A stretch of 64,000 nucleotides of DNA. It comes from Eubacterium sp. (GTDB lineage: Bacteria > Bacillota > Clostridia > Lachnospirales > Lachnospiraceae). A model generated the notes under the pieces. That model had not been told where the DNA came from, searched no databases, and worked only from the letters and a program-made list of their open reading frames with translations. Positions 40,843-51,943 of this stretch are shown in pieces. The first letter of the stretch is position 1. Each line of letters starts with the position of its first letter. Location: NCBI GenBank assembly GCA_017433825.1, contig JAFRGL010000018.1, forward strand, positions 1 to 64,000, given 5' to 3'. Made by a program: the position numbers and the translations under genes.

Positions 40843-42837
40843 CTATTCATCCAGATGATATCTTCTCCGCTCCGCGGGAATCAGTTCGCGGCCGTTTAAG
40901 AGTTCTTCCGCCAGGGCAATCTGCTCTTCCAGGGTTTCGGGAACTTCGATTTCCTCCGCCCGGTATTCGTAATAATATTTATCCGCGCTTTTGTCTGTAT
41001 AAACGCTGCTGTAAAGCAGCATAACGGAAGCGCTTTTGTTCCCGTAGACCGGATCCTCCGGACCGCACAGGCTGAACTCGGTTTCCCGTAAATCGTGAAT
41101 GATATCCACTGTATGCCCGTCCGCAAGATCGATAACATAGATATCATTTCCGCGCCAGAGGGGCAGCCAGCCTTCCGAAGACTGCGTCAGGAAACGGACG
41201 CCCGAAGACTGTCCGAAATCGTCCATCTCGAACAGGAAGCTTCCGTCTTCTTCGTCATACACAAACTGCTCTCCCACGATGATGCGCCGTGAACCGTCCG
41301 GCAGGATTGCCAGATAGGTGCCGTTCCAGTAGGTGGAGCCGTTGGGCGCCGTCGCAAACAGCTTCGTATTCTCATCCTCAATGATATACTTTAGACGGAA
41401 TGGTCTGCTTTCGAAGACCGCGATACCGTCCCGGTTCAGGGCGTGCACCCGGTCGGAGAAACCGGGTCTTTCCATGAAAAATGTCACCTCAAAGGGAAGT
41501 TCCTCCGTCAGGGACGTTTCCCCGTCATAGACGGGAATCTGCCTGACGTTTTCCTCCTTTAAGGCCGGCTTGTCCGCGCCTGCCGACTCCGTGACAGAAA
41601 ACCTTAATAATACTTTATCGCTTTTCTCCAGCAGGAGCGAACCGTCCGGGAGAATCTTCACCGCGGATATACCTGTCACAAGGCTGCCGTCAGTCATCCG
41701 CAGGTAAAAGCCTTCTTCCGCGCCTGACGCGGAACCAATCCAGAGGATTTCATCCGCATCGTCCCAGGTTTCTCCCCAGCGGACAGTTCCCTGATAGACG
41801 CCGTAACCGTATTTCACTGAATAATCTTTCAAAGACACATGCGCGTCGTCCGGTCGGTATGGTTTATCCCCGCTTCCGGAGGGCGGGAGGATTTCCATCG
41901 AAGCAGGAAGCGTACCCGGCCTTTCGTCATCTTCGGATTCGCTCAGCAATGTGTACCCCCCATAGGAAAGCGAGTCCATCTGCCGGGTCCGTTCGTACGC
42001 CTGTTTGGTTGTCACGGGGGTAAAGCCCGCGCTGCATCTGATGGACAGGGCTTTTTCAAACACTTCCGTGAGTTCTTCTATCTGCCGCATTTCCGGCAGG
42101 TATTCCAGGCAAAGCAGCATCGCCAGCTCCGTATTTCCCGCGTCCAGCAGTCCGTCCGCCGTCACGGCAACGGTGCGGGCCAGGGCCTCCTGCGCCGCGT
42201 CTTTCTGCTCCTGCGCTTCGGCAAGCGCTTCTTCCGCTTCAGCATACTGCTGCTGCAGCTTTTCATTCTGCTGCCGGATAATCTGCATCCTGGAAATGGT
42301 AAAGATGAGGAAAACCGCCGCCGCCCCCATCACCGCGCAGCCCGCCGCCAGACGGATTCTCGCCTTCTGCCGGCGGTCCCGGTTCATCAGGTCGTCAAAC
42401 CGCACGCCCAGCATCGGTGCCAGAAGACGGAGTTTTTCCGTTTTCAAAAGGCCGTATGCTTTCCAGGCGCTCTCCGCCGTGATATTTGCCGCCAGCGGCT
42501 CATGTTCCTTTACCGTGCCGTCGGGCAGCTTTTCGAAACGGATATTTTCCGGAAAGCTTGTCACAGGCGTTCCTTCCGCCAGCACGGTGAGAATCCGGTT
42601 TCTTTTCCCGGCAGACAAGTATTCCTCTATAACGCTGCAGACTGCGCCGTCACCGGGCGTATCCGGCGTGCAGATGACAATCAGCCAGCTTTCCGGTATT
42701 TCACGCACCGTATGGATGCCTGTCTTTTCAATGATGTCTTTATGAATACGGTATCCTTCCAGCTCTTTTTCCAGTCTTTCAGCCAGCTCAGCGGAAGACG
42801 GCGGGGCAATTACCTGAAATCCTTTCTTTTCAGTCAT
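40843..42837 (-). CDS. Degenerate TIR-membrane-propeller-like protein (partner)
   Basis: The 664-residue protein is a diverged relative of the upstream TIR protein. Residues 7-110 align to its TIR second half (WLIVICTPD, RNRILTVLAEGTPVTSFPE), but the first strand and BB-loop are replaced and the WCxxE segment reads VCSVIEE with the catalytic-type Glu changed to Val. A membrane helix is at 161-180, a long coiled coil at 185-222, then the LLDAGNTELAMLLCLEYL linker that precedes beta-propellers in such proteins. The remaining 400 residues look beta-rich and may be a propeller. The start is two bases after the previous stop, with GGAGGGTGA inside the upstream gene. Confidence 0.75.
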   Translation of the reverse strand: MTEKKGFQVIAPPSSAELAERLEKELEGYRIHKDIIEKTGIHTVREIPESWLIVICTPDTPGDGAVCSVIEEYLSAGKRNRILTVLAEGTPVTSFPENIRFEKLPDGTVKEHEPLAANITAESAWKAYGLLKTEKLRLLAPMLGVRFDDLMNRDRRQKARIRLAAGCAVMGAAAVFLIFTISRMQIIRQQNEKLQQQYAEAEEALAEAQEQKDAAQEALARTVAVTADGLLDAGNTELAMLLCLEYLPEMRQIEELTEVFEKALSIRCSAGFTPVTTKQAYERTRQMDSLSYGGYTLLSESEDDERPGTLPASMEILPPSGSGDKPYRPDDAHVSLKDYSVKYGYGVYQGTVRWGETWDDADEILWIGSASGAEEGFYLRMTDGSLVTGISAVKILPDGSLLLEKSDKVLLRFSVTESAGADKPALKEENVRQIPVYDGETSLTEELPFEVTFFMERPGFSDRVHALNRDGIAVFESRPFRLKYIIEDENTKLFATAPNGSTYWNGTYLAILPDGSRRIIVGEQFVYDEEDGSFLFEMDDFGQSSGVRFLTQSSEGWLPLWRGNDIYVIDLADGHTVDIIHDLRETEFSLCGPEDPVYGNKSASVMLLYSSVYTDKSADKYYYEYRAEEIEVPETLEEQIALAEELLNGRELIPAERRRYHLDE

Positions 42838-42839
42838 CT

Positions 42840-45800
42840 TCAGTCACCCTCCCCGATTCCGTATTCCTGCCTCAGTTCCTCCAGATAAGCCGGAGACTGC
42901 TGCGAAAGCTTTGTATTTGCTTTCTGCACCAGGGTATCCGGATCGGAAGCCCGGATAATTCTCGGCGTTGTATAATAGCCGTAAATACAGAGGCTTTCAC
43001 CGTCCGGCGCGACGGCGGCGCCTACGGCAATACGGCTGTATTTGAAATCCAGAAGCGTGATGCCGTCGGAAATCCGTATAATCCTCAGATCGTCCATCTC
43101 CAGGCGGACGTTGTTGAGCGCGGCGTCATACCCGCCGAAAACCACATGCTGGGAAGCGTTCGCCTCATCCCTTAACTCCATCAAAGGGTCTTTGGCCTGC
43201 ATGGTTGTCAGCATCCTGCCCCTTTCGGTGTCTGTATAGACCGCCGGCCCGAAACTGCCGCCCGCCTCCAGCGTTTTGCAGTATTCGGTTTCTTCTTCCG
43301 CTACGGTCCAGCGTACTGCCATTTCCCCGGTATAAGAAAAGACGAAATCGCAGTATTCCTCCAGGTCCCAGGAATCCAGGAACCTGCCGTCCGGCAGCGA
43401 GTAGACTTCTATATGTGTTCCCTGCCCGTTTTCCGTTTCCGGGTGGCTGGTCAGGGAAAATTTCTGCTGTTCTTCGCAGACCTGCACATACCTGGTCGGG
43501 CTTTTGTAGGGTTCTTCCAGCAGGATGGTATCCTCCAGGACGCTGCCGTCTTTTGCCGCGAGGCGGATATACCGTATCCCGGCTTTGTCCGCGTCCTTGT
43601 CCCAGTATCTGTTTACGCTTAAGATCTGGCTGCCGTCCGCCGACCAGCAGGCTTTTTCCATATCGGTTTTTACCCAGTATTCTTCCCCTGTTTCCGGATT
43701 GAACGCGACGATGTCGCTCCCGTATTCCGCGGGAGAAAAAGCGATTTCGTTTTTCCCGTCCGGATTCTCTTTAGGCATCAGGCGGTCCCTGGCGCAGTCT
43801 TTCCACGATACGCTCCAGAGGGTTTCACCGGTTTCCGCGTCAATTTTCTCCAGGCCGTCCATGTAGCTGGTCGCCCGCCAGACAGCATTTCCGTCCCGGG
43901 AAAGGCAGCAGAAATCATGCGCGTTGCCCTGCAGCGTCCATCTGCTGTCATTGTTCCAGATAAACCTGCCGGTTTTTACATCCCATTTGGAGACCTGGCC
44001 GCCGTACTGCTGCAGGTAGATGTATTTACTGTCGGGGGAATAAAAGGCATACGCGGTTTCATACACAACCCCCTGCTCGTAAAGAGGAAAATAGTCCGTG
44101 GCTTCCATCGAGCTGTCCGCTTCGATTTCATACAAATCCACGCGGTTCTCATACAGAAGGCAGAAGGAATTGCCCAGATGCCGCCACAGCTGCTGCTCAT
44201 ATCCCTCCCAGAAAACGTCTATGGGCATTTCCTCCGGGAATATTTCCTTCACCAGCCTTCCGTCCAGGCTGACAATCCTGATGCCGCCGTCAGCGCAGAG
44301 CAGCAGGAACAGTTCCTTCTGGCTGCAGTACTGCAGGGAAAGCACCGGCGCAGGAGAAGGAAACCTGTATTCTTTTTCCAGCGTAACCGCATTGATTAAA
44401 TAAGCGTCCCCCGAAGCATCCACAGCACAGAAGCAGGTGCTGCTGTCCGGATAATAAACCTTCGTCCATTCGCCCGGCAGAACTGCTTTTTTCCTCCCGA
44501 AGTCTGTATCAAAGAGATAAATCGTCCCTTTGTCGTTAACCACCGCGATACGGGAGTAGTTGTCGGAAAGTCCGGCGGAAACAGGCAGGCCTTCCATCTC
44601 CAGTCCGAGCGCTTCCGTCTCCCCGATATAGAAAAACGCGGTCTGCTGCTGCCCGGAAAGAGGATTTTCGTTCCAGGCCAGCATATAAGAGCTTTCTCCG
44701 CATTCCAGCACGTGATCGGCGTAAATATACTCTCCGTTCAGCGTAATCCGGTTCTCTTCCAGGGTTTTCTTATACCCGTTGTTGGTGGTTAAGGGTTTAT
44801 CCGGCCCGTAAAAGACGGTCTGTGAACCCCGGCCTCCTATGTATCCCATACTGTAGCCGGCTTCGGCGGCATTTTTCTTCGCCGCAGACTCCACCGGTAC
44901 GATTTCCCCTGTTTCGTAAGTCAGATAGTATTCAAAAGGCCCGTCTTCGTCATCCAGAAGCAGTACGCCGGCTGAACTGTCCGTATTTTCACTTGACAGA
45001 TAACCGGTAATGGTAAAGTCCGTTTCATAGCTTTTGGAATATGTCCAGCTGTCTTTGGGCGCTGCCGGCATGCTCACGGCGGCCCTTAAGGCACTGATAG
45101 CTTCTTCCGAAACAGGCGCGTCCCCGTGCAGGTCTTCCGGAAGCGCCTCCAGGGCAAGAAGAACTGCCGCAATATCCTCCTGACTGTCTATGGCCGTCCA
45201 GGCCCTTTCCGACAGGAACCGGGCATTGGTAAGTATCGCGCGGTTTCTCTCTTCCACCGCCGCGTCTCTTGCTTCCCGGGTCCTTGCGGTAGCAGCGGCA
45301 ATTTCCCGGTTGTTGCCGGCAATCCGGTTTGCCGTGACCGAAGCATAGCCGGCAAATCCCAGTACGCCGGCAAGCACGGCCGCAAAAACGCCGCCGCGGA
45401 CCATAAGCCGGTTTCTCCGTTCGGAGGCAGCATATTCTTTCGCATCCTCTCCCGCTGCACGTCCGAGAATTGCCGCAGCGCATTCGTCGAGTGCGGCAGC
45501 CCGTTTCCTCCCCGAAGTATCCCTGAGGTCGGCTATGACGGGCAGATCCCGGATGGATTCCGGTATGGACTTCTCCGGCGTTCCGCTTACCAGTACGGGC
45601 AGGATCCTGTCCTTCCTGCCCAGCTTTAAATACACTTCCACCTCTTTCAGGCACCACAGGGAACCCATGTAGTCCTCGGAGCACAGGCAGATAAGGAATC
45701 CGCTTTCCTTCAGCGCATTCTCAATATCCGTACCCAGGTCCGAGCTGGTCGGCAGCTCGTCTTTATCCCGGAAAACACGCCGTTTCCGGTCAAGCGCCGA

Positions 45801-45905
45801 CGCCTTCGGCAGATGCCAGTTCTCCAGCTTTCTCCGAAGCTGGAGGGATATCTGCTGTTCCCCCGGATTATGTCTGTAGCTGATAAAAGCAAAATATCTT
45901 TCCAT
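42840..45905 (-). CDS. TIR domain-membrane helix-PQQ/WD-like beta-propeller protein
   Basis: The 1021-residue protein opens with a TIR domain (residues 1-150): RYFAFISYRHNPGEQQ, FRDKDELPTSSDLG (BB loop), FLICLCSEDYMGSLWCLKEV with the conserved WCxxE (Glu88), ILPVLVSGTPEKSIP. A membrane helix is at 170-190, then a helical stretch and the DSQEDIAAVLLALEALPEDL linker found before propellers in bacterial TIR and STAND proteins. Residues 290-1000 hold beta-propeller repeats with WDVKTGRFIW, IDAETGETLW and FNPETGEEYW docking motifs. TIR domains of bacteria often hydrolyse NAD; here membrane-tethered. Role could be sensing or defence. Confidence 0.85.
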   Translation of the reverse strand: MERYFAFISYRHNPGEQQISLQLRRKLENWHLPKASALDRKRRVFRDKDELPTSSDLGTDIENALKESGFLICLCSEDYMGSLWCLKEVEVYLKLGRKDRILPVLVSGTPEKSIPESIRDLPVIADLRDTSGRKRAAALDECAAAILGRAAGEDAKEYAASERRNRLMVRGGVFAAVLAGVLGFAGYASVTANRIAGNNREIAAATARTREARDAAVEERNRAILTNARFLSERAWTAIDSQEDIAAVLLALEALPEDLHGDAPVSEEAISALRAAVSMPAAPKDSWTYSKSYETDFTITGYLSSENTDSSAGVLLLDDEDGPFEYYLTYETGEIVPVESAAKKNAAEAGYSMGYIGGRGSQTVFYGPDKPLTTNNGYKKTLEENRITLNGEYIYADHVLECGESSYMLAWNENPLSGQQQTAFFYIGETEALGLEMEGLPVSAGLSDNYSRIAVVNDKGTIYLFDTDFGRKKAVLPGEWTKVYYPDSSTCFCAVDASGDAYLINAVTLEKEYRFPSPAPVLSLQYCSQKELFLLLCADGGIRIVSLDGRLVKEIFPEEMPIDVFWEGYEQQLWRHLGNSFCLLYENRVDLYEIEADSSMEATDYFPLYEQGVVYETAYAFYSPDSKYIYLQQYGGQVSKWDVKTGRFIWNNDSRWTLQGNAHDFCCLSRDGNAVWRATSYMDGLEKIDAETGETLWSVSWKDCARDRLMPKENPDGKNEIAFSPAEYGSDIVAFNPETGEEYWVKTDMEKACWSADGSQILSVNRYWDKDADKAGIRYIRLAAKDGSVLEDTILLEEPYKSPTRYVQVCEEQQKFSLTSHPETENGQGTHIEVYSLPDGRFLDSWDLEEYCDFVFSYTGEMAVRWTVAEEETEYCKTLEAGGSFGPAVYTDTERGRMLTTMQAKDPLMELRDEANASQHVVFGGYDAALNNVRLEMDDLRIIRISDGITLLDFKYSRIAVGAAVAPDGESLCIYGYYTTPRIIRASDPDTLVQKANTKLSQQSPAYLEELRQEYGIGEGD

Positions 45906-46670: not shown

Positions 46671-47711
46671 ATGGATAATTACCTTCAGGAATCCTATCCC
46701 CAGAGAGTCCTTCACGATATGAGCGCCGCGGTCCTGGTGCTTGACCGAAAGGGCCGTATTATGTACCTTAACCGGCCTGCTGCCGATATGCTCGAACTGG
46801 ACGATACCTGCCCGCCGGGCACGCAGCGTTTCCAGCTCACATCGGACAACACGGAAAACGACGAGTTCTACGAGTATATCTTCGCAGCCCTGTATCAGAA
46901 GCAGGAGACCCATGTCGGCCAGGTTAAGTACCGCTCTCCCTCGGGAAAGCTGTACCATGTCCGCATATCCAGTTCCTACCTTTCCACGCAGGACATCGAA
47001 AATTCGGAGATCGTGCTGACGATTTCCGACGAAACACAGGAATTCATGCTTCAGCAGAAGGTTCATGATTCCGCCACGACATTTACCACCTTCCTCTTCG
47101 GTTTCTCGATCTGGATGATCCTCTACGCCTTGTGGGAGTTCCTGGGGCGGCCGATTGCCTCGGATTTCCTGACCCACGGAATCGAAGTGCTGTCGGTAAT
47201 TATGCTGATATTCATTCTGCACCGCACCAGCCTTACCTGGCGCGACCTGGGGTGTCTTCCGGAAAATCCGAAGAAAACGGTAAAAACCGGCGTAATTGTG
47301 GCGCTGGCCGCCGTCGGGCTGCTTTTTGCCGCCAAGGCTGTCGCGCGGATGATTGATCCCGGCTGTTTTGAGCCGTCTGCGCCGTTTTTCGACATCAGCC
47401 GCTTCGGCATCCGGCAGGTGCTGTATATCCTTACCGCCGGCATCCAGGAATTCCTGGCGCGCAGCGTCATGCAGGGCAACCTGCGGCGGATTCTGGTCAG
47501 CAGGCACCGCGGCGTGATGGCAATCATCCTTTCTTCCCTGGTTTTTGCCGCACTGCATATTCACTTCGGTTTCGTATTCATGATCGGCGCGGCAATTCTG
47601 GCCGGTCTGGAAGGCATTCTTTACGAAAAACAGCAGAATATCGTGGGCGTCTGGATTGTTCACTGGGCCTTCGGCATCTGCGCCACCCTGCTGTGCCTGA
47701 TCGATCACTGA
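46671..47711 (+). CDS. PAS domain fused to CPBP (CAAX/Abi) intramembrane protease-like domain
   Basis: The 346-residue protein has a cytosolic PAS-like domain (residues 10-125: VLVLDRKGRIMYLNRPAADM, HVRISSSYL, EIVLTISDET). The rest has about six membrane helices (137-345) with CPBP motifs: GIQEFLAR at 257-264 (motif 1, EExxxR with Gln in place of the first Glu), FAALHIHFG (His296) and WIVHWAFG (His331). CPBP proteins include prenyl-protein proteases and bacteriocin self-immunity proteins. PAS fusion suggests ligand control. GGAG lies before the ATG. Followed after 40 bases by the LRR-ADP-ribosyltransferase gene. Confidence 0.82.
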   Translation: MDNYLQESYPQRVLHDMSAAVLVLDRKGRIMYLNRPAADMLELDDTCPPGTQRFQLTSDNTENDEFYEYIFAALYQKQETHVGQVKYRSPSGKLYHVRISSSYLSTQDIENSEIVLTISDETQEFMLQQKVHDSATTFTTFLFGFSIWMILYALWEFLGRPIASDFLTHGIEVLSVIMLIFILHRTSLTWRDLGCLPENPKKTVKTGVIVALAAVGLLFAAKAVARMIDPGCFEPSAPFFDISRFGIRQVLYILTAGIQEFLARSVMQGNLRRILVSRHRGVMAIILSSLVFAALHIHFGFVFMIGAAILAGLEGILYEKQQNIVGVWIVHWAFGICATLLCLIDH

Positions 47712-47751: not shown

Positions 47752-49830
47752 ATGAAAAAGACTTACAGATGTCTGGCTGTATTCCTCTGCATTGCCGCAG
47801 TGATTCTTTCTTCCTGCGGGACAGGCGGCAGTACGCCTGGCGGAAACGCAGGCTCAGAGGCCGTGTCGGAGAAAAGCGAAGCCCCGGCCGCTGCGGCCGT
47901 GGATTTTGAATATACTGCGGATGCGGACGGCCGCCTTACGCTGACTGCCTATACGGGAACGGAAGCAGACCCGGTCATCCCGGCCGAAATAGACGGACAG
48001 CCGGTGGTATCGATAGGAAACGGCTGTTTTACAGGGCTTCTGTGCATCCGTAAAATCCATATCCCGGAGGGAATCGAAAGCATCGGCGACTATGCCTTTG
48101 AATGCTGCAGCGCGCTGGAGAAGGTTTATTTTCCCGAATCGCTTAAAAGCATCGGTACCGGTGCGTTTTCCGGCTGCAGCCACCTTACGCTGGCAGACAT
48201 GCAGGACGGCATCACTTCAATCGGCACCGGCGCTTTTCTGTACTGCACCTCCCTCGTAAACCTGGAGCTCCCCGCTGATCTGGAAGCTCTCGGCAGTTTC
48301 GCCTTTGCCGGCTGCGAAAGCATTGCCAGGGTGAATTTCAGGGGAGACGCGCTTACCGCGATCCCGGACCGGCTTTTCTGCGGATGCGCGGGCATGATGT
48401 ACTGTAATCTGCCGGAAAAGCTTGCTTCAGTGGGCAAAAGAGCCTTTGCGGGCTGTGAAGAGCTTAGGAAGCTCTGGTTTTTCGAGCCCCTCGAAAAGGT
48501 ATCCGAATATGCCTTTGAGGAATGTGTCTCCCTGAAGAATCTGAATTTTCCGGTGGAATACATGGAAAAAGGCACGTTTACCCGCTGCCAGGCTTTGTCT
48601 TATTTCAGCTGTGACGAAAGTACTGTCCGTATCGGGGAAATGGCCTTTTCAGGTTCAGGCATTAAGGATGTCTCCGTTGCCGCAGGCACCAGGGACATCG
48701 CCGAAGGCGCTTTTGGAAATTCGTTTGTGAAAAGCGTCAGCGTTCCCGAAGAAAATGAGTATTATGAGGTGAAGAACGGCTCGCTTTACGCCGACGGCGG
48801 GAAAACGCTTCTGGCATATTTCCCCGAAGATCCCTACGCGGAGGAGGAGCAGACAGAGTTTACCGTACCGGACGGGGTGGAGGTTATCGCCGCCTATGCG
48901 TTTTCCAACAGCCCGCTGGAAGTAATCCGGCTTCCGCAATCATTAAAGGAAATCCATGCTTACGCGTTTTCAAACACCCGCATCACCGGACTGGATATCC
49001 CGGAAAACACAGTCCTCGACCCGGACGCCTTAAAGCAGACCGCCCTTGACGAAGAATCCTCTGACCCCGGGCAGGCAGCCTCGGAAGAAATGCCCAGGCC
49101 AGACTTCATCGGTTCCGCCGCGCCGGATAAGAGTCTTTTCCACGAAGAGGATTACAGGGATTATCTTGAGATTTCCAACGATGAATTCGAAGCGTGGAGC
49201 GAGAAATATCTGGACTATAACAGGCAGTACGGCATCATTGACCGGGAATACATGCCTTATATCATGATGTACAAGGGAGAAACCATCACCCACTATGTGG
49301 CCATGACCGCCGTGCAGAATCACGATCCGGACATGTGGGACCGGGCAGCCGGCAAATTCGGGGATGATTTCGAAGAAATGTACCTTATGATGAACCACGG
49401 CCTCTTTACGGAGCTTCGCCGCGGGAAAATGTGCGACAGCCTGGTCCTTTACAGCGGCCTGTACGATTCCCAGGTCTGCGCCGCGGCGGGAACGGAAACC
49501 CTTCCGACAACGGAACAGCTTGTCCGCGCCATCGGCAGCACCTTTACCGACCCTGTTATGATAAGCACCACGACGGACAAGGAAGTCGCAGCCGGTTTCG
49601 GGGATACGCTTTTCATCATTTATGCGTCAAAAGAAGCAATGGAATCGCTGGGTGCTGTCGCAATAGACAGCCTGATAGGCACAATGGAAAAAGAGATTCT
49701 GATGTGCGCCTATGCGCAGTACAGAATCCTGGATGTGGGAACGATGGAAATAACCCCTTCCGACGGAAGCAGCCCTCTGTACCGGAATTATATCAAGGTT
49801 GAGCTTCTTGGTCCGGGGAGGACGGAATAA
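47752..49830 (+). CDS. Leucine-rich-repeat lipoprotein with C-terminal ADP-ribosyltransferase-like domain
   Basis: The 692-residue protein has a signal peptide and lipobox LSSC (Cys22). Residues 75-420 are BspA-type (LRR_5) repeats, with units such as IPEGIESIGDYAFECCSAL. After a Glu/Pro-rich linker (430-460), residues 470-692 resemble an R-S-E class ADP-ribosyltransferase: LVLYSG at 564-569 (beta-1, Ser568 where Arg is usual), MISTTT at 603-607 (STS motif) and EKE at 646-648 (ExE motif). A surface-exposed enzyme acting on host or competing cells is possible. The lost Arg may mean weak or no activity. CGGAGG precedes the ATG. Confidence 0.8.
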   Translation: MKKTYRCLAVFLCIAAVILSSCGTGGSTPGGNAGSEAVSEKSEAPAAAAVDFEYTADADGRLTLTAYTGTEADPVIPAEIDGQPVVSIGNGCFTGLLCIRKIHIPEGIESIGDYAFECCSALEKVYFPESLKSIGTGAFSGCSHLTLADMQDGITSIGTGAFLYCTSLVNLELPADLEALGSFAFAGCESIARVNFRGDALTAIPDRLFCGCAGMMYCNLPEKLASVGKRAFAGCEELRKLWFFEPLEKVSEYAFEECVSLKNLNFPVEYMEKGTFTRCQALSYFSCDESTVRIGEMAFSGSGIKDVSVAAGTRDIAEGAFGNSFVKSVSVPEENEYYEVKNGSLYADGGKTLLAYFPEDPYAEEEQTEFTVPDGVEVIAAYAFSNSPLEVIRLPQSLKEIHAYAFSNTRITGLDIPENTVLDPDALKQTALDEESSDPGQAASEEMPRPDFIGSAAPDKSLFHEEDYRDYLEISNDEFEAWSEKYLDYNRQYGIIDREYMPYIMMYKGETITHYVAMTAVQNHDPDMWDRAAGKFGDDFEEMYLMMNHGLFTELRRGKMCDSLVLYSGLYDSQVCAAAGTETLPTTEQLVRAIGSTFTDPVMISTTTDKEVAAGFGDTLFIIYASKEAMESLGAVAIDSLIGTMEKEILMCAYAQYRILDVGTMEITPSDGSSPLYRNYIKVELLGPGRTE

Positions 49831-49930: not shown

Positions 49931-51943
49931 TTAATACAGCTTAGCGCCTGCCGGGATATGGGGATCCACCATCAGGAGATGGAGCTTTTCATCTTCGCCG
50001 TCCTTGTGAACGGCGGAAATAAGCATGCCGCAGGAATCGATGCCCATCATCTTTCTGGGAGGCAGGTTCGTGATGGCGATGCAGGTCTTGCCGATGAGCT
50101 GCTCAGGCTCATAATAAGCGTGAATTCCGCTTAAAATGGTGCGGTCCGTGCCGCTGCCGTCGTCCAGGGTAAACTGCAGCAGCTTCTTGCTCTTCGGAAC
50201 TGCGGCACAGTCCTTGACCTTCACGGCGCGGAAGTCGGATTTGGAGAAGGTCTCGAAATCGACAAAATCCGTAAACAGAGGCTCGATGACCACGTTGGAG
50301 AAGTCGATCACCTCATCCGGTTCCTTCGGAACCACCTTCCCCAGAGGGGAAGGCTCTTCATCCGGTTCCTTCGGAACCACCTTCCCCAGAGGGGAAGGCT
50401 CTTCATCCGTTTCCTCCGGAGCCACCTTTCCCTCAACGGGAAGGCTTTCGCTGCCGGTCTTTAAGGATTTCATGGTCGGGAAGGCCAGAACGTCGCGGAT
50501 GGCTGCAGAATCGGTAAAGAGCATGATAAGCCTGTCGATGCCGTAGCCGATACCGCCGGTGGGCGGCATGCCGATTTCCAGTGCATTCAGGAAATCCTCA
50601 TCCGTATGCTGGGCTTCCTCGTCGCCTGCGGCGGCGTTCAGATCCTGCTGGTGGAAACGCTCCCTCTGATCAATCGGGTCATTCAGCTCAGAATAGGCGT
50701 TGCACATTTCCCAGCCGTTCATGAACAGCTCAAAACGCTCCACGTAGCCCGGCTTCCTGGGATTTTTCTTTGTAAGCGGCGAAATCTCAATCGGATGGTC
50801 CATCACAAAGGTGGGCTGGATCAGATGCTCTTCCACGTATTCCTCGAAAAACAGGTTCAGGATATCGCCCTTTTTATGTCTTTCTTCAAATTCGATGCCG
50901 CGCTCCTTCGCCAGGGCCTTCGCCTCTTCCGTCGTCTCAATGGCGTCGAAATCCACACCCGCGTATTCTTTTACCGCGTCCACCATGGAAATACGCCTGA
51001 AAGGCTGTCCCAAATCCATGGCAATGCCGTTGTAGACGATGACGTCGCTTCCCAGCACCTCCCGGGCAATATGGCGGAACATGTCCTCGGTCAAATCCAT
51101 CATGCCGTTGTAATCGGTATAGGCCTGGTACAGCTCCATCAGGGTAAATTCCGGGTTGTGCCTGGTATCCAGGCCTTCGTTGCGGAATACCCGGCCGATT
51201 TCATAGACCTTTTCCATGCCGCCCACGATGAGCCGCTTCAGATACAGCTCCAGGGAAATCCGCAGCTTGAAGTCTTCGTCCAGCGCATTGAAATGCGTCT
51301 CGAAGGGCCGTGCGGCTGCGCCGCCGGCGTTGGAAACCAGCATGGGGGTCTCCACTTCCAGAAAGCCCCTTCCGTCCAGGTAACGGCGGATACAGCTGAT
51401 GATGCGGGATCTCTTGATGAAGGTATCCTTTACCTCCGCGTTCATGATGAGGTCCACATACCGCTGACGGTATCTTAAATCCGTATTTGTCAGGCCATGG
51501 AATTTCTCCGGCAGTACCTGCAGGCTCTTGGACAGCAGGGTCAGCTCTTCCGCGTGCAGGGAAATCTCTCCGGTCTTGGTGGTAAACACCTTGCCCTTGA
51601 TGCCGATGATATCGCCCACATCCAGCTTCTTAAAGCCTTTGTAAGACCCCTCACCGATGGAATCCCTGGCCACATAGCACTGAATCTGCCCCTGCAGGTC
51701 CTGTACATGACAGAAAGAAGCCTTGCCCATCACCCGTTTGCTCATCATACGGCCGGCAATGCTTACCTCGCTGCCCTCCAGGGCTTCGTAATTGTCCTTG
51801 ATTTCCTGACTGTGGTGCGTAACATCGTAGGATGTTATGGCAAAAGGATCCTGTCCTGCCGCCACCAGCTCCGCCAGCTTCTCACGGCGTACAGCCAGCA
51901 GGTGGTTCAGATCCTGTTCCTGATCCTGGTTCTGATTTCCCAT
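49931..51943 (-). CDS. lysS: Lysyl-tRNA synthetase (class II) with C-terminal tRNA-binding domain
   Basis: The 670-residue protein charges tRNA-Lys. It has the N-terminal OB fold ([19 protein letters not shown]), class II motif 2 ([19 protein letters not shown]) and motif 3 ([13 protein letters not shown]). Usual length is about 500; here a repeat-rich linker (about 500-555) leads to an EMAP-II/MetG-beta-type domain ([28 protein letters not shown]) that adds nonspecific tRNA binding. The extension is known in some Clostridia. It follows greA by 18 bases. Confidence 0.96.
50311..50447. repeat. 45-bp tandem repeat inside lysS linker
   Basis: Three units of 45 bp: the first two are almost the same, the third is diverged. 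Each encodes about 15 residues ([15 protein letters not shown]). They lengthen the linker between catalytic core and tRNA-binding domain in frame. Confidence 0.9.

Follow-up and report, generated by a model that had tools for sequence, protein, structure and literature searches.

A pair of adjacent genes for predicted membrane TIR-propeller proteins, one with an intact and one with a cut-down TIR domain

Two adjacent genes and the parts of their products

The window analysed here, a stretch of 64,000 nucleotides from a Eubacterium sp. (Lachnospiraceae), carries two minus-strand open reading frames that are two bases apart, as a sequence-only reading of the same DNA had noted. No terminator-like site was found at their junction by a simple scan, and the two proteins are homologous (BLASTP E 7e-13). 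Their parts are listed below, with names of strands, loops and helices taken from the general TIR layout.

42840..45905, minus strand: intact-TIR subunit, 1021 aa (TIR, membrane helix, helical linker, propeller-type C-domain)
45516..45905, minus strand: intact subunit, TIR domain, about aa 1-130 (Pfam TIR_2 47.7 bits, cut-off 28)
45699..45782, minus strand: intact subunit, strand B / BB loop / helix B segment, aa 42-69, 28 residues
45642..45644, minus strand: intact subunit, codon of E88, the WCxxE Glu (aligned to the plant TIR L6)
45351..45407, minus strand: intact subunit, membrane helix, aa 167-185 (hydropathy 1.94; K+R 4 before, 2 after)
42843..45068, minus strand: intact subunit, C-terminal propeller-type domain, aa 280-1021, predicted to be extracytoplasmic
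40843..42837, minus strand: cut-down TIR subunit (partner), 664 aa
42388..42837, minus strand: partner, cut-down TIR-derived domain, about aa 1-150 (profile-profile comparison)
42688..42705, minus strand: partner, six residues REIPES where TIRs hold 28
42481..42582, minus strand: partner, retained segment before and in strand E (LAEGTP...EHEPLAANI), 30 residues counted
42295..42351, minus strand: partner, membrane helix, aa 163-181 (hydropathy 2.33; K+R 6 before, 3 after)
42163..42285, minus strand: partner, coiled-coil-like helix, about aa 185-225 (read by eye from the sequence)
40846..42087, minus strand: partner, C-terminal domain, aa 251-664, propeller-type in part (WD40 chain profile matches)

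The TIR core of the intact subunit contains the BB loop, FRDKDELPTSSDL, and the Glu of a WCLKE motif (E88) within a TIR_2 match of 47.7 bits, bearing out what had been said of the first protein. Its profile matches the L6, Cat1 and AT1G72930 chains, and all nine intact-type members examined match TIR_2 in Pfam. By motif, the catalytic-type Glu and the BB loop are present in 14/14 intact subunits; WxxxE and RDx[DE]E likewise occur in 14/14 intact-type proteins, the window's included. The C-terminal domain scores 34.6 bits with PQQ_2 (cut-off 27.6), a model also found in eight of nine relatives, and its profile matches PQQ and WD40 chains (best 2.2e-10). Among models of known defence proteins, ThsB_TIR gave 21.7 bits on the intact subunit against a cut-off of 21.2, well under the TIR_2 score of this protein, the NCBIfam type III Thoeris model gave 16.4 against a cut-off of 220, and PADLOC returned two weak partial matches to the TIR region (E 0.0017 and 0.023). 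Neither window protein has a Pfam match to NB-ARC or LRR domains.

The partner gave nothing above cut-off in Pfam or NCBIfam and no match to a PADLOC model, and 0/9 members of its family match any Pfam model. In profile-profile comparisons, its N-terminal part matches both a profile of the single-gene TIRs described below (E 8e-49, with 40 of the 69 single rows) and the paired intact TIR (2.5e-14), indicating that the partner is TIR-derived. The sequence-only reading held that this protein lacks the N-terminal part of the TIR. We reject this description, since the partner aligns from strand A/helix A onward and the loss is internal: a block of about 22 residues is missing, corresponding to strand B, the BB loop and the start of helix B (6 residues vs. 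28). The Val reported in place of the catalytic Glu is present in the window's partner, but is not a general rule; in alignments read by eye, 11 of the 14 partners have lost the Glu and the other three (L059, L061 and L067) have a Glu at this position. Loss of the Glu is therefore rejected as the defining mark of the partner. At the sequence level, its general marks are the missing BB segment (14/14) and the lack of the WxxxE pattern, found in 0/14 partners.

A beta-rich C-terminus had been noted in both proteins, and both C-terminal domains match propeller chains by profile. In the partner, the WD40 matches (Tako8 4.1e-10, PkwA 1.4e-9) cover about 80 of 415 positions and single stretches are weak. 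The membrane helix and the helical or coiled-coil-like stretch ascribed to each protein were seen again, the former by hydropathy (one each) and the latter by eye. Across 11 intact and 11 partner proteins, a helix lies at about residue 165-185, with 3-7 K+R in the 15 residues before it and 1-3 in the 15 residues after it; the counts are equal (3 and 3) in the intact subunits of L062 and L063. Complete C-domains are strongly acidic (net charge -27 to -67). Judged from charge, the TIR is likely to be cytosolic and the propeller outside.

Occurrence and linkage of the pair

Two further pairs are found in the window's genome, on contigs C8 and C14. To look beyond it, we searched for two peptide patterns in a collection of genomes from 84,980 species. 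Reading of the 21 loci recovered showed a cut-down partner at nine and a TIR bearing the usual motifs at 12. An intact TIR gene adjoins eight of the nine cut-down loci, while the ninth, L060, stops at a contig end; since L060 and L182 share sequence, the partner in this genome (G723) appears to be split over two contigs. The nine loci are spread over eight metagenome-assembled genomes, named after goat or sheep stomach samples or belonging to the RUG series, which we take to be rumen genomes.

Both subunit profiles were then run on these eight genomes and the window's own, yielding 14 intact-type genes (293.8-338.2 bits) and nine other matches (80-172 bits), at least two of which (the third gene of L057, and L022) group with the single type in the tree described below. 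All 14 intact-type genes in the nine genomes adjoin a cut-down partner on the same strand, so that the adjacency seen in the window recurs elsewhere; outside the window's genome this count comes from a scan seeded with partner peptides, by which intact-only genomes would go undetected. The spacing ranges from -17 to +13 nt, with starts chosen by us, and is an overlap of exactly 4 nt in 7/14 pairs. The TIR gene comes first in 10 pairs and the partner in four. No conserved third gene was seen when the open reading frames around the loci were read by eye, uncounted. At L057 (9097-15786), the pair is directly followed on the same strand by a third, single-type TIR-propeller gene.

Relatives of the partner at E <=1e-3 occur in at least 55 of 397 genomes of the family, the window's own included, with up to three candidates scored per genome; those that were read are single-gene TIR-membrane helix-propeller proteins. 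With the same number of candidates scored, the best relatives outside the window's genome show 40% identity to the partner, vs. 43 and 46% for its two further partners, and the partner profile, run on 392 genomes of the order, gave 1053-1159 bits for the window's three partners and 163 for the best other match. The first 300 residues of the intact subunit gave 304-650 bits for the genome's own three and at best 111 for any other among the 397 family genomes (up to five candidates scored per genome). The intact clade profile was run on 391 genomes of the class and 363 of the order, two overlapping sets that both contain the window's own genome, and gave five other matches of 157-182 bits (up to eight candidates scored per genome). 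Their scores resemble those of single-gene TIRs, and no partner was found within the stretches fetched around them.

In three genomes of the same genus, LysRS is 80-88% identical. Six same-genus genomes were searched; none gave a partner and one gave a single-gene match. Pairs are present in hosts at LysRS identities of 0.59-0.78. As far as these genomes show, the distribution of the pair is patchy, by transfer or loss, four of the six pairless same-genus genomes being only 77-82% complete.

Reciprocal segment loss and joint evolution

The single-gene proteins of Clostridia have the same domain order as the pair, TIR, membrane helix and propeller, and are homologous to both subunits; a relative of this type on a Butyrivibrio plasmid is annotated as a toll/interleukin-1 receptor domain-containing protein. 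All three motifs (BB, EPL[AG]A and WxxxE) occur in 58/69 singles, unlike in either subunit. In four genomes (G034:C1, G605:C24, G619:C19 and G686:C6), two partner-profile matches on one strand are separated by about 3 to 3.5 kb; single-type TIR genes may thus also be arranged in tandem.

Segment lengths were measured on one 97-row alignment. From strand B through the BB loop to helix B, the 69 singles have 27-28 residues, the 14 intact subunits 28 and the 14 partners 6. Between strand D and strand E, the singles have 26-39 residues (median 31), the intact subunits 18-19 and the partners 30. As the singles were picked by F[ILVA]SY[RK]H and a BB-type motif, their BB length holds by construction, whereas their pre-strand-E length does not. 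The EPL[AG]A motif is found in 58/69 singles, 0/14 intact subunits and 14/14 partners, most of the remaining 11 singles carrying variants such as EPMA, EPLS or DPLA. Profile scores agree with this division: five paired intact proteins score 289-334 bits with their own profile and 37-53 with the other; for five partners the corresponding figures are 308-375 and no more than 41, and six singles score 134-178 bits with each. These scores indicate that each subunit has diverged from the single type in its own direction.

The tree was built from 92 N-terminal regions; loci L001-L018, L020 and L023-L025 were omitted, intact proteins were required to have two TIR motifs, and removal of repeats reduced 101 rows to 80, of which 69 are of the single type. 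The 12 partners form one clade and the 11 intact subunits then known another (support 100/100 each), with subunit type changing label twice, the minimum. In each clade, the window's member groups with that of the L056 pair, with weak support for the partner (93/36) and good support for the intact subunit (99/98). An origin by simple tandem duplication of the neighbour was rejected because both subunits are nearer to the single-gene TIRs than to each other, a verdict in which the profile comparison used 40 of the 69 singles and the deep nodes of the tree are weak.

The distances of the two subunits co-vary (Mantel r 0.86, p 0.0001, 14 pairs). This was still seen with host LysRS distance partialled out (r 0.87, p 0.0001, 13 pairs; the L057 pair comes from a genome with no LysRS match and was omitted), and also upon removal of the near copy L063 (r 0.74, p 0.0001). 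Host distance alone correlates less well with the subunit distances (0.29 and 0.46). Comparison of L062 with L063, a single genome pair, put dN/dS at 0.14 in the cut-down TIR, an estimate by which this domain is under purifying selection; the intact TIR gave 0.23 and either C-domain 0.35. Mean identities of intact and partner subunits are 0.56 and 0.49 in the N-domains (14 pairs) vs. 0.33 and 0.32 in the C-domains (11 pairs, with L058, L067 and L182 omitted). In these alignments the C-domains diverge faster, as for receptors with diversified outer parts. Globally, a membrane pair of one complete and one degenerate TIR, as the sequence-only reading had described it, is well supported by sequence and evolution.

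A possible two-subunit receptor and its rivals

TIR enzymes are usually viewed as working by like-with-like assembly. Excerpts of the work on SpbK describe the BB loop of one TIR contacting the DD loop, strand E and helix E of an adjacent TIR to make a composite active site, and state that this BB-loop/DD-strand E interface is needed in all characterised TIR systems (PMC12847820). In excerpts on TIR-STING, a second TIR contributes a DD-loop residue to complete the active site, and replacing the BB loop abolishes NADase function (PMC9402430); in those on short Argonaute systems, part of the active site comes from a neighbouring TIR (PMC10474274). The losses in our pair appear to sit on opposite sides of this contact, one per subunit, the shortened pre-strand-E segment being assigned to the partner-facing side by the general TIR layout. 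Because losses appear on both sides of the composite-site contact, an obligate heterodimer is favoured.

We propose that the pair is a two-subunit membrane receptor, a closed and regulated heterodimer in which the intact TIR would complete its site only against the partner TIR; we give this proposal an even chance of being right, and the Glu kept at the catalytic position by three of the 14 partners counts against it. In both subunits the TIR would lie in the cytosol, with the propeller-type domain on the outer side of the membrane. The intact subunit, shortened on the side opposite the BB loop, would contribute the NADase-type Glu along with the BB loop; the partner TIR, its BB-loop side gone, would offer the side that it has kept (pre-strand-E segment, strand E and helix E). 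Sensing of a ligand or of an envelope event by the propellers would align the two TIRs, rather than build an open-ended filament, and thereby start NAD+ cleavage or a cyclic ADP-ribose-type signal. A bolder generalisation, which we offer tentatively and expect to fail somewhat sooner than hold, is that two genes now divide a composite TIR active site between them, making catalysis dependent on the heterodimer, and that a closed receptor pair with two diversified outer sensors has replaced open-ended polymerisation, as a convergent counterpart of plant paired TIR and heterodimeric IL-1 receptors.

Other readings account for some of the same data. Animal adaptor TIRs signal by assembly, and the TIRs of the pair might recruit or assemble downstream proteins without cleaving NAD. 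Self-association is called a key feature of TIR signalling in the abstract of PMC8635717, but all 14 intact subunits retain the WxxxE and RDx[DE]E motifs, and we find a pure scaffold very doubtful. We also consider it quite unlikely that the genes encode two co-transcribed receptors for different ligands, with no TIR contact and the cut-down TIR as a membrane-proximal spacer. The faster divergence of C-domains than N-domains in both subunits would fit such an arrangement; a mere spacer is, however, harder to reconcile with a TIR that is conserved, under purifying selection in the one comparison made, and whose distances track those of the intact TIR with the host controlled.

Tight linkage and co-inheritance would equally be expected of a toxin-antitoxin-like pair, in which the intact TIR acts as an NADase that harms its own cell and the partner serves as a resident inhibitor, blocking the active site until a signal releases it. 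Plant RPS4/RRS1, where one TIR suppresses the other according to excerpts of PMC5435354, lends this some plausibility. Nonetheless, both subunits have their own membrane helix and a large C-domain, beyond the needs of a simple inhibitor, and the intact subunit has also lost part of its pre-strand-E segment in 14/14 cases, making this reading possible but unlikely. The lack of TIR motifs in the partner and of Pfam matches in its family (0/9) might finally suggest a degenerate duplicate that is being lost. This deserves next to no credence and was rejected on conservation data: 14 partners, two of them truncated at contig ends, are spread over hosts whose LysRS identities fall as low as 0.59, all 14 show the same internal loss, dN/dS is 0.14 in the single comparison, and the partner is nearer to single-gene TIRs than to its neighbour.

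The proposed heterodimer has partial parallels. In excerpts of the literature, RPS4 and RRS1 are likewise products of linked genes whose TIRs touch, one restraining the other (PMC9528088, PMC5435354); linkage and a degenerate partner TIR are what is seen here. RPS4 and RRS1 are, however, NLR proteins from head-to-head genes, whereas the pair consists of propeller membrane proteins from co-directional genes. SpbK, TIR-STING and short Argonaute TIR-APAZ proteins share the catalytic Glu and the BB loop with the intact subunit, and in excerpts their composite site lies between neighbouring TIRs. The TIRs that assemble in such phage-defence NADases are copies of one protein, while here the two sides appear to be split between two genes. 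Animal Toll-like and IL-1 receptors are also single-span proteins with a cytosolic TIR, and the IL-1R family is described as heterodimeric in excerpts of PMC7075850; their TIR is at the opposite end, and they have LRR or Ig domains where the pair has a propeller. We found no description of this TIR pair in titles and the beginnings of abstracts. If the proposal is true, the natural, reciprocal loss of assembly faces would offer a clean test of the composite-site model, and a bacterial membrane TIR receptor with a canonical and a non-canonical subunit would inform how paired receptors evolve from single ones.

As to its role, we infer that the pair may serve defence or envelope sensing. Defence, the anti-phage role suggested by the sequence-only reading, is a fair guess from TIR biology that has so far found no support in the window's surroundings or in viral, phage and plasmid searches. 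Among eight window neighbours, PADLOC gave no match for six and weak matches for two that look sensor-kinase-like by eye, and there was no ThsA-type effector. With the N-terminal 240 residues of the partner as query, no relative was found in 17 pattern-matched viral stretches and no phage record was returned; plasmids gave two weak TIR-like matches, at 34.9% identity over 59% of the query and at 38.5% over 46%. One of the two carries a TIR-domain protein annotation, and the other stands in an unannotated record. A phage- or plasmid-borne unit was rejected on this basis. Alternatively, the pair may sense the envelope or the community.

Some further observations concern other genes in and around these genomes. 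G000 (2.6 Mb) has 12 TIR_2 matches, 11 of them over cut-off, on contigs C8, C12, C13, C14, C18 and C20, and two open frames on C13 have two such matches each. A three-gene cluster on C12 (L025:5579-10760) is possibly a second complete/degenerate TIR arrangement. Its middle gene encodes 396 aa with a TIR of 58.5 bits and a weak LRR match, one flanking protein (293 aa) has a weak TIR-like part (BLASTP E 3e-13 to the 396-aa neighbour; TIR_2 15.5 bits, below cut-off), and the other, a 1020-aa LRR protein, has a very weak TIR-like N-terminal part (16.5 bits, below cut-off). In the window, a PAS domain is fused to a CAAX-protease-type membrane domain at 46671-47711, and a 45-bp repeat is present three times (50313-50446) within the lysyl-tRNA synthetase gene. 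At 47752-49830 lies a BspA-type LRR lipoprotein-like protein whose last 247 residues, which have no Pfam match above cut-off, presumably recall an ADP-ribosyltransferase fold, judging by eye.
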